A stretch of 64,000 nucleotides of DNA from positions 62,001-126,000 of the IMG/VR virus record IMGVR_UViG_3300047557_003310. One strand, given 5' to 3'. Shown here piece after piece: positions 38,315 to 43,035 of this stretch. Under the pieces are notes generated by a model. The model worked only from the letters and a program-made list of their open reading frames with translations, did not search any database and was not told where the DNA came from. Both the position numbers and the translations under genes were made by a program. The stretch's first letter is position 1; each line of letters opens with the position of its first letter. The DNA is from a virus.

Positions 38315-39135
38315 TGGATAAAAATAAAGCAGTGTATAAACTCCAAGGTCTTCCTCCAATCTACTATATTAATCTGGATAGAAGTACAGATAGAAAAAAA
38401 TATATGGAAGACCAATTTAAATATTGGGAAATTGAAAATTATACTCGTGTTTCTGGATATGATGGAACTGACGATGATCTGAGTGATATTCTTAAGGGAA
38501 AATATCCAGATCAAATGAGTTCTAAAGATGTAGGATGTTGTACATCACATTTAAAAGCAATTCAACATTGGTATGAAACTTCCGATTCGCCGTGTGCGTT
38601 AATTATGGAAGATGACTGTGATTTAGAAGTAATTAGACATTGGCCTTTTACGTGGATGGATTTTATTTCAAAAATTCCATTTGATTACGATGTAGTTCAA
38701 CTTGCAATAATTAATCCATCTCAAATTTCCATGCAACTACATAGAAGATTTGCAAATGATTATTCTACAGCATGTTATTTGATTACTCGTCATCATGCTA
38801 AAAAACTCGTTCAATATTATTGTAAAAATGGTAAGTATAAATTAGATTACAATGTTAGACCAAGATGTTGTTCTGAACATGTAATTTATCAATCTGGTAG
38901 TTGCTATGCTATTCCTCTTCTTCTTTATTCTAAAGAAGAATTTGGTTCAATGATTCATGATGAAGATCATATTAATACATTTCATGTTCCTAGTCGTGAT
39001 GGGTTATGGAATTTTTGGAAAACACAGGCAGCAAAAATTTCGAATTGGTCCGATATGTTTGAATTTGATCCATATTATGGAACACTTCCTCCTGGGGTTC
39101 AACTTACAAGTGAGGAAACCCCACCATCTACTTGA
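38311..39135 (+). CDS. Glycosyltransferase family 25-like
   Basis: 274 residues. YYINLDRSTDRKKYM and LIMEDDCDLEV are the family's start and DxD-like motif; KDVGCCTSHLKAIQHW lies between. Family members add galactose or similar to LPS. Its stop overlaps the porin promoter. Confidence 0.85.
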   Translation: MMDKNKAVYKLQGLPPIYYINLDRSTDRKKYMEDQFKYWEIENYTRVSGYDGTDDDLSDILKGKYPDQMSSKDVGCCTSHLKAIQHWYETSDSPCALIMEDDCDLEVIRHWPFTWMDFISKIPFDYDVVQLAIINPSQISMQLHRRFANDYSTACYLITRHHAKKLVQYYCKNGKYKLDYNVRPRCCSEHVIYQSGSCYAIPLLLYSKEEFGSMIHDEDHINTFHVPSRDGLWNFWKTQAAKISNWSDMFEFDPYYGTLPPGVQLTSEETPPST

Positions 39136-39160
39136 CAAGAAATCAAAACCAAGCTATACT
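39132..39160 (+). promoter_or_regulatory. Sigma70 promoter for the porin gene
   Basis: TTGACA, 17 bases, TATACT; the -35 overlaps the preceding stop codon. Confidence 0.85.
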
Positions 39161-39168
39161 AAATATTC

Positions 39169-39197
39169 AGTTAAGAATTTTGTTGTAATTCTTAACT
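39169..39197 (+). promoter_or_regulatory. Perfect palindrome at the 5' end of the porin mRNA
   Basis: AGTTAAGAATT (39169-39179) and AATTCTTAACT (39187-39197), 11 bases with a 7-base loop. It starts at about +3, so it can be a 5' stabilising hairpin or an operator. It also contains CTTAACTT, like half of a cyanobacterial Pho box. Confidence 0.7.
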
Positions 39198-39229: not shown

Positions 39230-40699
39230 ATGAAATTTTTCAAACAACTGATGCTTGCACCTGTTGCTCTTGGAATGGTTGCTCCTGCTGCGATGTCAGC
39301 AGACCTTAATATGAATGGAGTAAACCAATATGCATCCGCAGAGCAGGTAACAAGCGTCACTCAATTCTCTGATGTCCAACCTACCGATTGGGCATATCAG
39401 GCACTCAACAACCTTGTAGAGCGTTATGGTTGCGTTGCTGGTTATCCTAATGGCACCTATGGTGGCGGTAAGGCAATGACTCGTTATGAAGCAGCAGCAC
39501 TTCTCAATTCCTGCCTGGATCGTGTGACTGAAGTTACCGATGAACTGAAGCGTCTTCAAACCGAATTTGCCGCCGAACTCGCTGTTCTTCGTGGTCGTGT
39601 AGATAAACTGGAAGCACAAGTTAGTGAACTTGAGGCAACTCAATTCTCCACCACAACCAAACTGCGTGGTGAAGCAAACTTCGTGATCGGTAATGTTGAT
39701 GACTACAAAACCAAAGATGGTGATGTAACTCACGCTGCATTCAACTATGATCTTCGTTTGAACCTGGATACTTCGTTTACTGGTAAGGATTTGCTTCGCA
39801 CTCGTTTGCGTTCTGCTAATTTCAGTAGCGATCCTTTTGGTTCCAGTTCTTCACTATTCAAACTTGATAAAGCAGACAACACTTCCAGTGAAGTTGGTAA
39901 CAACGTAGTTATCGACCGTCTGTACTATCAGTTCCCTGCGTTCAATAACAGCACTACTATTACTGCTGGTGCTCTGGTTCGTAATACTGAAATTGCTTGG
40001 GTTCCTTCTGCTTATAACTCTAAGATCCTTGACTTCTTCCAAGTTGGTGGTACTCCTGGAGTCTATAACAAGGCAGTTGGTGCTGGTTTCGGTGTCCAGT
40101 ACGGTAAGAAAGGTCTTGTTGCTGGTGTAAACTATGTTGCCCAAGCAGGTCAAGATAGTGAGCGTGGTGAGTTTGATGAGTCTGGTGCTCTGAATACTCT
40201 GGCACAAATTGGCTATCGTGGTGATAACTACGGTATTGCATTTGGTTACCGTTATGGTACTGAAGGCACTCGTGTTCGTACCTATAATGGTCTGAATGGT
40301 GCTTCTGGTGCTCTTGCTCCTGGTCAAACTTCTAACGGTTATGCTCTGAACGCATACTGGCAACCTTCTCAGTCTGGTTGGGTTCCCTCCATCTCTGCTG
40401 GTTATGGTTGGAATACCGTAAGTGGCACCAAGAGTGATGCTACCAACAGTCAGTCTTGGATGGCAGGTCTTCAGTGGGAAGATGTGTTTGTTGATGGTAA
40501 TACTGCTGGTGTTGCTATTGGTCAAGCACCTACTGGAGAAGACCTTGAGAAGTCAACGATGCTTGAGTTCTTCTACAAGTATCAAGTGTCTGATAACATC
40601 AGCATTACTCCTGCAATCTTCTACGCAAGCGACAATCAGCGTCTTGCTAAAGATTCCTCCAACTGGGGTGCTGTTATACAATCAACATTCAAATTCTAA
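39230..40699 (+). CDS. Cyanobacterial-type outer-membrane porin (SLH domain + barrel)
   Basis: 489 residues. Signal peptide about 1-23 (LAPVALGMVAPAAMSA). An SLH domain follows (FSDVQPTDWAYQALNNL, about 46-110) that binds peptidoglycan, then a coiled coil (ELAVLRGRVDKLEAQVSELE), then a beta barrel to a terminal Phe. This is the layout of Synechococcus Som-type porins. G+C and codon use look closer to the psbA region than to the adjacent glycan genes, suggesting host origin. Next to pstS: a phosphate or iron uptake role is plausible. Confidence 0.92.
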   Translation: MKFFKQLMLAPVALGMVAPAAMSADLNMNGVNQYASAEQVTSVTQFSDVQPTDWAYQALNNLVERYGCVAGYPNGTYGGGKAMTRYEAAALLNSCLDRVTEVTDELKRLQTEFAAELAVLRGRVDKLEAQVSELEATQFSTTTKLRGEANFVIGNVDDYKTKDGDVTHAAFNYDLRLNLDTSFTGKDLLRTRLRSANFSSDPFGSSSSLFKLDKADNTSSEVGNNVVIDRLYYQFPAFNNSTTITAGALVRNTEIAWVPSAYNSKILDFFQVGGTPGVYNKAVGAGFGVQYGKKGLVAGVNYVAQAGQDSERGEFDESGALNTLAQIGYRGDNYGIAFGYRYGTEGTRVRTYNGLNGASGALAPGQTSNGYALNAYWQPSQSGWVPSISAGYGWNTVSGTKSDATNSQSWMAGLQWEDVFVDGNTAGVAIGQAPTGEDLEKSTMLEFFYKYQVSDNISITPAIFYASDNQRLAKDSSNWGAVIQSTFKF

Positions 40700-40717: not shown

Positions 40718-40807
40718 TGGTTTGTGTGAGAACTCATCAGGTAAAGGGAGGTCTTTGGACCTCCTTTTTTATGTTATAGTATAAATATTAATATCTCACA
40801 CAAACCA
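40718..40807 (+). promoter_or_regulatory. Long-range 14-bp inverted repeat with late promoter, before HNH gene
   Basis: TGGTTTGTGTGAGA (40718-40731) is repeated inverted at 40794-40807. TATAAATA (40780-40787) sits just before the 3' arm, so a late transcript starting near 40793 lacks the 5' arm. The 3' arm ends 6 bases before the ATG. A competing stem TTACCTG/CAGGTAA (40713/40738) can occupy the 5' arm. Confidence 0.75.
40744..40770 (+). terminator. Terminator of the porin gene
   Basis: AAGGGAGGTC-TTTG-GACCTCCTT followed by T, lying in the loop of the long inverted repeat. Confidence 0.88.
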
Positions 40808-40813
40808 AGGGTT

Positions 40814-41431
40814 ATGTCTAAAAGAAAGACTATTTATGGTGTCGGTATAAATGATGCCAACTATCCAGTAAAACCAAGAATATCTGGGACAAACCAAAGA
40901 ATATCTTGTCCTTTTTATTTGAGGTGGAAAGAAATGATACGAAGATGTTATTCTGAAAAAGAACATTTAAGAAATCCAACTTATAAAGATTGTAAAGTTG
41001 TGGATGAATGGAAATATTTTTCTAACTTCAAATCTTGGATGGAAGTGCAAGATTGGGAAGAAAAACATTTAGATAAAGATATACTTGTTCCTGGAAATAA
41101 AACATATGGACCAAATACTTGTATCTTTGTTGAAGATAAGATAAATCTTTTACTTGTTAAGTGTGATTCCAAAAGAGGGAAATATCCTCTTGGTGTTTCT
41201 CCAGCAATAAGAGGTAATAAAACTTACTACCAGTCGCATATGGGTAGAAAGTATCTTGGATTTTTTGATAATATTTTTGAAGCACACCAGTGTTGGCAAG
41301 TAGAAAAATCTAATCATATTAAAGAAGTTGCATTACTTCAAACTGATGAGATATTAAAGAATGCACTTTTGGAAATATCCAATAAGTTGATGAAAGATTA
41401 CAATACTAATACTGAAACTAAAACATATTGA
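40814..41431 (+). CDS. HNH-type homing endonuclease-like protein
   Basis: 205 residues. Motif series WKEMIRRCYSEKEHLRNP, CKVVDEWKYFSNFKSWM, LDKDIL and NTCIFV is a phage HNH-like family I recognise. A C-terminal repeat-like segment (GVSPAIRGNKTYYQSHMGRK) resembles an AP2-type DNA-binding module. Inserted between the porin and the head-like gene at 41464. Confidence 0.82.
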   Translation: MSKRKTIYGVGINDANYPVKPRISGTNQRISCPFYLRWKEMIRRCYSEKEHLRNPTYKDCKVVDEWKYFSNFKSWMEVQDWEEKHLDKDILVPGNKTYGPNTCIFVEDKINLLLVKCDSKRGKYPLGVSPAIRGNKTYYQSHMGRKYLGFFDNIFEAHQCWQVEKSNHIKEVALLQTDEILKNALLEISNKLMKDYNTNTETKTY

Positions 41432-41463: not shown

Positions 41464-41937
41464 ATGAACGCACAAGAACTTCGCAATCTTCAAGAAGCAT
41501 ATTTAGAAGTTGTTGAAAACCAGCAACTTAATGAAGCAGATAGAATAGACAAAGGATTGTCTCCTCTTGTAAAAAGACAAGTAAGAAATGATCGTATTAG
41601 AGATAAAGTTAGTTCAAGAGATCCTGATGCACATACTGAACCTGAATTGGAAAAATCACGAAGAGTGATGCATAAAGCAATGAGGGGACAAAAAAAACCA
41701 GAAGCAAAATCAAGACCTACGGGTCCTGGTAAATATGGTGCTATGCAAAGAAGAGGAATGTCTGTATCTGATAAGTTTAGAAAGGAAGTTTTGGAGAGAG
41801 GAATGAAAGAAGAAGTAGACATCTATGACATTATCCTCTCACACCTACTTGATGAAGGTTATGCTGAAACACCAGAAGCAGCAGAAGCAATTATGGTGAA
41901 TATGAGTGAAGAGTGGAAAGATAGTATTATTGGTTGA
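41464..41937 (+). CDS. Head-associated-like protein with shared C-terminal module
   Basis: 157 residues, basic middle (RRVMHKAMRGQKKPEAK) and a C-terminal helical module (IYDIILSHLLDEGYAETPE ... NMSEEW). The module is also at the end of the 18580 protein. Driven by a late promoter. Structural or prohead role inferred. Confidence 0.66.
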   Translation: MNAQELRNLQEAYLEVVENQQLNEADRIDKGLSPLVKRQVRNDRIRDKVSSRDPDAHTEPELEKSRRVMHKAMRGQKKPEAKSRPTGPGKYGAMQRRGMSVSDKFRKEVLERGMKEEVDIYDIILSHLLDEGYAETPEAAEAIMVNMSEEWKDSIIG

Positions 41938-42004: not shown

Positions 42005-42049
42005 CTTAACCTATTCTTAGTTGACTTTAATTTACTGTTTTAGTAGAAT
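42005..42049 (+). promoter_or_regulatory. Pho-box-like element and promoter of pstS
   Basis: CTTAACCT (42005-42012), 3 bases, CTTAGTTG (42016-42023): the 8-3-8 repeat form of cyanobacterial PhoB sites, first half a full match to PyTTAAPyPyT. It overlaps TTGACT (42021-42026), 17 bases, TAGAAT (42044-42049), the place expected for PhoB activation. Host PhoB could thus switch on pstS in phosphate-starved cells. Confidence 0.7.
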
Positions 42050-42072: not shown

Positions 42073-43035
42073 ATGAAACTCAAAAATTTTATTGCTGTTG
42101 GTTTGGTTGCTGCTCCTGTTGCTGCTCTTGCTGGACCTGCTCTGAATGGTGCTGGTGCCACCTTCCCTGCACCAATTTATCAACGCTGGTTCCAAGATTA
42201 TGCACGAACTTCTGGGAGTAGGGTTAATTATCAGTCCGTTGGTTCTGGTGCTGGTGTTCGTCAATTCATTGCGGGCACAGTTGACTTCGGAGCAAGTGAC
42301 GAACCAATCAAACCAGCAGAAGCAGCAAAGGTGAAGCGTGGTGTCGTTCAAATCCCTATGGTGGGTGGAACGATTGCTGTTGCTTATAACAAACCTGGTT
42401 GCAAACTGAAACTAACGCAAAAGCAAACTGTCGATGTGTTCTCTGGACGAATTAAGGATTGGAAAGCACTTGGTTGTGCTGCTGGTCCTATTCGCACTGT
42501 ATATCGTGCAGATGGTTCTGGAACCACTTATGCATTTACTAATTCCCTAGATGCCTTTGGTGGTTGGACTGCTGGTGTAGGTAAGTCTGTAAAGTGGCCT
42601 ACTGGTATTGGTGCTAAAGGTAATGAGGGTGTGTCTGGTAGTATCCGACAAACTCCTGGATCTATTGGTTATGTGAATACTGGATTTGTGAAAGCAAACA
42701 AACTCCAAGCAGCAGCACTTCAAAACAAGGCAGGTAAGTTTGTTCTTCCAACTGCTGCTTCTGGTTCTGCTGCACTGAATGGTATCAAACTGGATGCAAA
42801 CCTTGCTGGTGAAAATCCAAATCCTGCTGGAGCAACTGCATATCCAATTTCCACTTTGACTTGGATTCTTGCTTATAAGACTGGCAATGGTGCCAAGACA
42901 AATGATATCCGTGCTGCTCTAAATTATGCTCTGAGTTCTAAGGCACAATCAATTGCTGATGACCTTGGATATGTTCCTTTGAGTGGTTCTGTGCTTAACA
43001 AAGCACGTATCGCCGTAAACCGAATCGGTCAATGA
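42073..43035 (+). CDS. pstS: Periplasmic phosphate-binding protein
   Basis: 320 residues. Signal peptide about 1-20 (LVAAPVAALAG). Phosphate loop regions are visible: GAGATFPAPIYQRWF, SVGSGAGVRQFI, VDFGASDEP and RADGSGTTYAFT. Captures phosphate for the host PstCAB transporter. A known cyanophage auxiliary gene. Confidence 0.96.
   Translation: MKLKNFIAVGLVAAPVAALAGPALNGAGATFPAPIYQRWFQDYARTSGSRVNYQSVGSGAGVRQFIAGTVDFGASDEPIKPAEAAKVKRGVVQIPMVGGTIAVAYNKPGCKLKLTQKQTVDVFSGRIKDWKALGCAAGPIRTVYRADGSGTTYAFTNSLDAFGGWTAGVGKSVKWPTGIGAKGNEGVSGSIRQTPGSIGYVNTGFVKANKLQAAALQNKAGKFVLPTAASGSAALNGIKLDANLAGENPNPAGATAYPISTLTWILAYKTGNGAKTNDIRAALNYALSSKAQSIADDLGYVPLSGSVLNKARIAVNRIGQ

Follow-up and report, generated by a model that had tools for sequence, protein, structure and literature searches.

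The porin gene described here occupies positions 39230–40699 (+) of the window, i.e. the whole 64,000-nucleotide stretch that was analysed, and forms an intact open reading frame (ORF) of 489 amino acids (aa) with zero internal stops. The window belongs to a T4-like cyanophage record of 132,824 bases that carries the gene of the T4-type major capsid protein (Gp23), and it contains psbA/psbD, close to those of Synechococcus myoviruses. The start codon at 39230 is backed by homologues opening with MKxxQLMLAPVALG; the mechanical ORF list begins at 38957, within the upstream glycosyltransferase gene.

Domain structure and flanking signals of the porin gene

The predicted protein comprises, from its N-terminus, a single SLH domain, a helix and a 16-strand barrel. 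Pfam recognized SLH (7e-9, residues 46–89) and OprB (3e-17, residues 105–467), and the NCBIfam model NF033921 por_somb spanned the whole protein (301 bits; cut-off 100), whereas the PHROGs collection yielded no matching family. On these sequence grounds, the porin is of the SomA/SomB-like SLH-OprB type. Its N-terminus (residues about 1–24; 39230–39301, +), strongly conserved in homologues, reads by eye as a classical signal peptide. Within these codons dS is 0.12 versus 0.55 elsewhere in the gene, i.e. about four times lower, a difference that may point to an anchor for recombination or to a constraint on the RNA.

The SLH domain, a putative cell-wall anchor (residues 44–90; 39359–39499, +), resembles that of OmpM1, an attachment porin of Veillonella, and is followed by a long α-helix (residues 91–139; 39500–39646, +), probably a periplasmic coiled coil. 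AlphaFold2 placed the helix at residues 85–137 with low to middling confidence and modelled the SLH domain poorly. The 16-stranded β-barrel (about residues 140–489; 39647–40696, +) was predicted confidently, spanning residues 142–488 in the model with a pLDDT above 85 in most blocks, and the protein ends in STFKF, where the invariant F489 is the C-terminal aromatic residue of the barrel. The closest solved structure was OprB of Pseudomonas (Z 25.7, 3.2 Å across 314 residues). Next, in a field of many general porins, came Omp32, which is anion-selective (Z 23.6), and OprO/OprP, which are phosphate porins (Z 22.7). The model is that of an anchored porin, whose selectivity is not readable from the fold, since a common fold alone proves no function. 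Domain order and fold are like those of the Som/SLH-OprB porins (NF033921), e.g. Slr1908, a member of the SLH-OprB family, from which the window porin differs in being phage-borne and low in GC. The intact ORF, the Pfam domains, the full-length por_somb match and the 16-strand barrel thus bear out the original prediction of a complete, phage-encoded cyanobacterial SLH-barrel porin.

Upstream of the gene, a σ70-type promoter sequence, TTGACA-17-TATACT (11/12 matches; 39132–39160, +), runs into TAAATA, a T4-late-like core. The same promoter class recurred in 68 of 135 viral porin leaders, compared with 2.8 expected from shuffled sequences. A perfect 11-bp inverted repeat with a 7-nt loop lies at the expected transcript start (39169–39197, +), and may constitute either a 5' leader hairpin or the end of the upstream transcript; one of the viral leader classes retains it as TTAAGAATTCTGTTGTAATTCTTAA. 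Downstream of the gene there is a strong intrinsic terminator, with an 11-bp stem followed by T (40743–40768, +), in a region flanked by a perfect 14-nt inverted repeat (40718–40731 and 40794–40807). The proposal that the porin gene has its own promoter and terminator is therefore supported at the level of sequence features. Viral porin leaders are modular in that class 1 combines a σ70-type promoter with a conserved hairpin, class 2 has a different σ70-type promoter overlapping GATAAATA, and class 3 has a T4-late-like TATAAATA behind a tRNA.

Spread among viruses and pairing with pstS

Searches of IMG/VR retrieved 228 stretches related to the porin gene, and 430 when a distant query was used. 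The fetched loci contained 149 distinct intact viral copies of 475–507 aa, with 51–95% identity to the window porin, which formed 16 clusters at 80%. Viral origin is based on IMG/VR for most contigs, on Gp23 for nine records including that of the window, and on isolation for phage S-SRM01; Gp23 was missing in most viral contigs, long and short, all of them partial records. One related contig had been binned with an uncultured Microbacteriaceae (L085). Its assignment as a host gene was rejected, as its neighbourhood reads as cyanophage, with sigma-factor-like and Hli-like genes, and the porin that it encodes is 92% like that of a virus; this metagenome-assembled genome probably contains phage sequence.

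Among the cultured phages searched, the only full-length porin was that of the freshwater phage S-SRM01 (MW015081), which is annotated merely as "porin" and not mentioned in the paper on that phage (PMC8557907). It belongs to the same family and the same phage clade as the window porin, with 69% identity over the full length, and differs in its Dps-type context and in that no pstS was found in S-SRM01. Two other isolates, S-CREM1 (L083) and S-PM2 (L084), matched only the SLH/helix part of the porin through proteins of 280–293 aa, annotated as "iron uptake porin" and "S-layer protein", which apparently lack the full barrel. Searches of the open-access literature turned up no account of porin genes in cyanophages. 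The earlier view that this is not a common cyanophage gene consequently holds for cultured phages; it fails for the viral contigs recovered in this analysis, whose matches are with phages of freshwater type.

The pstS gene, encoding the periplasmic phosphate-binding protein, is located at 42073–43035 (+) (TIGR00975, 271 bits against a cut-off of 205). PstS is near the porin, as originally stated, rather than strictly beside it, because two small ORFs without a Pfam match intervene (40814–41431 and 41464–41937, both +). A similar porin–pstS gap of 1.4 kb was seen in several relatives (L040, L362, L365 and L375). A viral search with the PstS protein of the window produced 79 new loci, 74 of them with enough upstream sequence. 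In 73 of these 74 informative loci a porin gene was present directly upstream of pstS on the same strand, mostly at a distance of 120–550 bp, and in the remaining locus it was found 2.3 kb upstream. Since the viral loci were picked by similarity to genes of the window, related phages are over-represented; the spread of the pair over clusters and contexts served as control. The pair was found in 11 of the 16 viral porin clusters and in two contexts, one with GT25 upstream and Hli/ferredoxin/peroxiredoxin genes downstream, and the other with Dps downstream. The reverse pairing fails, as 56 viral porin copies have no pstS downstream.

About 90 isolate phages encode a full-length PstS, with at most 62% identity to that of the window, and none of them was among the full-length porin hits. 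A previous study detected no conserved arrangement of the genes near pstS in cyanophages (PMC10976474), whereas the order is conserved in viruses of the window type. As far as we can tell, the conserved porin–pstS order in viruses is therefore new, and it is this conserved pair, not the porin alone, that constitutes the novelty. A viral porin adjoining a nutrient-transport gene has a parallel in the glnK-amtB-ompL arrangement, which differs in containing ammonium genes and a Bacteroidetes-type OmpL porin and in being described from two viral contigs (PMC8115048).

Host origin, composition and selection

In a tree of 88 rows, the main phage porins formed one group within a clade of Cyanobium/Synechococcus porins (support 100). 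That clade has 22 host members, in 12 of which pstS is situated 0.3–0.6 kb downstream of the porin gene, and all 14 host porins of the tree that lie upstream of pstS fell in one larger clade of 40 rows (support 99). Among sampled freshwater-type host pstS genes, a sample chosen by PstS similarity, about 6 of 40 had an upstream porin. The phylogeny against Synechococcus porins that had been suggested as a check thus nests the window lineage among porins of Cyanobium/Synechococcus whose genes frequently lie just ahead of pstS in the host. Together with Gp23 in the same record, this nesting among host porins indicates that the porin gene is host-derived and resides in a phage genome. The PstS tree does not show that porin and pstS were captured together in a single piece, and the AU test gave no rejection of such an event (p 0.43).

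Prochlorococcus PhoE constitutes a separate lineage in another clade than the phage porins, and is not orthologous to the window porin; no viral relative of marine Prochlorococcus PhoE exceeded 43% identity. Like the window porin, it is linked to pstS (we read L282, L284 and L285 as Prochlorococcus PhoE from their proximity to pstS), but it has about 40% identity to the window porin, and its pstS lies on the opposite strand at a distance of 2.9 kb. A SphR site has been predicted for PMM0709 (PMC1906773).

Wider sampling revealed at least three porin captures by phages. In the second and third capture groups the barrel is that of other host paralogues, joined to a phage-type N-terminus in the second group at least. 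In L434, L358 and L463, a signal peptide, SLH domain and helix of phage type are joined to the barrel of another host paralogue, i.e. the barrel appears to have been exchanged near the helix–barrel junction. These swappable surfaces would suit a role in changing the cell surface, where the porin takes the place of a receptor porin, or hides it, and prevents superinfection. The window lineage, in contrast, showed no hypervariable loops when these were sought, and the gene is under strong purifying selection (NG86 dN/dS of about 0.16 over 77 copies). Moreover, host receptors persist despite an added porin, and the linkage to pstS is left unexplained. Apart from the barrel exchange seen in viruses of other groups, there is no positive evidence for the receptor replacement or superinfection block that had been suggested, and we consider it very improbable.

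The porin gene has 45.0% GC and a GC3 of 33.7%, compared with phage means of 35.2% and 22.8%, and the nearest host loci, at 64–68% GC, are far above it. Hence, the host-like composition initially claimed was an error: the GC content of the gene is high only by the standards of the phage. A host-derived gene of high GC for the phage, whose host clade has the same porin–pstS pair, might be passive cargo, carried without benefit and linked to pstS by hitch-hiking. Such a history is made highly improbable by the 149 distinct intact copies with their deep divergence, the low dN/dS, the gene's own promoter and terminator sequences, and the repeated captures by phages.

Proposed phosphate entry and its alternatives

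A Pho-box-like triple repeat, CTTAACCT-N3-CTTAGTTG-N3-TTAATTTA, precedes pstS at 42005–42034 (+) and is the sole such site in the window. Phage pstS genes have in common a Pho-box-like triple repeat about 60–100 bp before the start, and the pstS genes of marine Kyanoviridae resemble that of the window in encoding a phage PstS behind a control region of the host-PhoB type. No Pho box was found before the porin gene in phages or in pstS-linked hosts, the porin leader scoring at background, and Pho-box control of the porin was accordingly rejected. The window porin differs in this respect from Slr1908, which is activated by PhoB (PMC11126600). Porin synthesis may thus accompany every infection, with pstS responding to phosphate stress.

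We propose, at what we judge to be even chances, that the porin serves as the outer-membrane entry channel feeding PstS during infection. According to this model, an SLH-anchored, trimeric Som-type porin captured from a freshwater Cyanobium/Synechococcus-like host would be expressed by the phage from its own promoter during infection and reach the outer membrane, keeping it open to phosphate and to small solutes of other kinds. Phosphate would then be supplied to the periplasmic PstS of the phage and the PstCAB pump of the host, and genome replication would be spared phosphorus starvation. The model is favoured by the near-universal porin–pstS pairing and by the pstS-linked host clade. Previous studies have reported that a pstS-bearing phage escapes delayed lysis in phosphorus-starved cells (PMC10976474) and that the PhoE porin rises more than 15-fold in phosphorus-depleted Prochlorococcus (PMC3349580). 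Against it stand the lack of a Pho box before the porin, the 56 copies without pstS, S-SRM01 with its porin and no pstS found, the separate lineage of Prochlorococcus PhoE, the iron-related family name and the Dps genes near many copies.

The main rival is an iron-uptake or general porin that would stand in for the short-lived porin expression of the host and let iron and other solutes enter after host shutdown, with pstS as a mere neighbour in a nutrient-gene island. The curated name of NF033921 is "iron uptake porin", Synechocystis Slr1908 has been described as an iron-selective porin (PMC11126600), and a gene of the iron-storing Dps family lies within about 3.5 kb downstream of many phage copies, with or without pstS. 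The 56 copies that have no pstS downstream also count in favour of this rival. However, the por_somb model also matches Prochlorococcus PhoE and every Som porin tested, so the name is unspecific, and viral pstS genes of the window's kind almost never occur without the porin. Furthermore, the clade acquired basic, not acidic, positions. Five basic positions (K214, K281, R330, R341 and R350) set the phage and host clade apart from other host porins and speak for phosphate entry, although the enrichment is borderline and post hoc (p 0.055). Total barrel charge was rejected as a group marker, as it did not separate the groups. We grant the iron or general porin appreciable weight while considering it less likely than phosphate entry.

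Taken together, the porin is a real and widespread host-derived phage gene, and the original suggestion of nutrient or phosphate uptake beside PstS emerges strengthened by the pairing and the pstS-linked host clade, though unproven, the porin being without a Pho box. Extending the phosphate-entry model, we consider it a slightly less than even prospect that a phosphate-import module of two genes and two compartments (the porin, then a Pho-box-controlled pstS) is widespread among freshwater cyanophages, absent from the cultured phages searched, and endowed with a pore exchangeable by recombination with other host porins. Phage PstS is already known, and the crossing of the infected cell's outer membrane by phosphate has hitherto been left to the host. 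If the model is correct, freshwater-type cyanophages would also control outer-membrane permeability, and phage nutrient strategies would be predicted to differ between freshwater and marine habitats. The pair suggests that these viruses help their dying host to import phosphate across two successive layers of its envelope.
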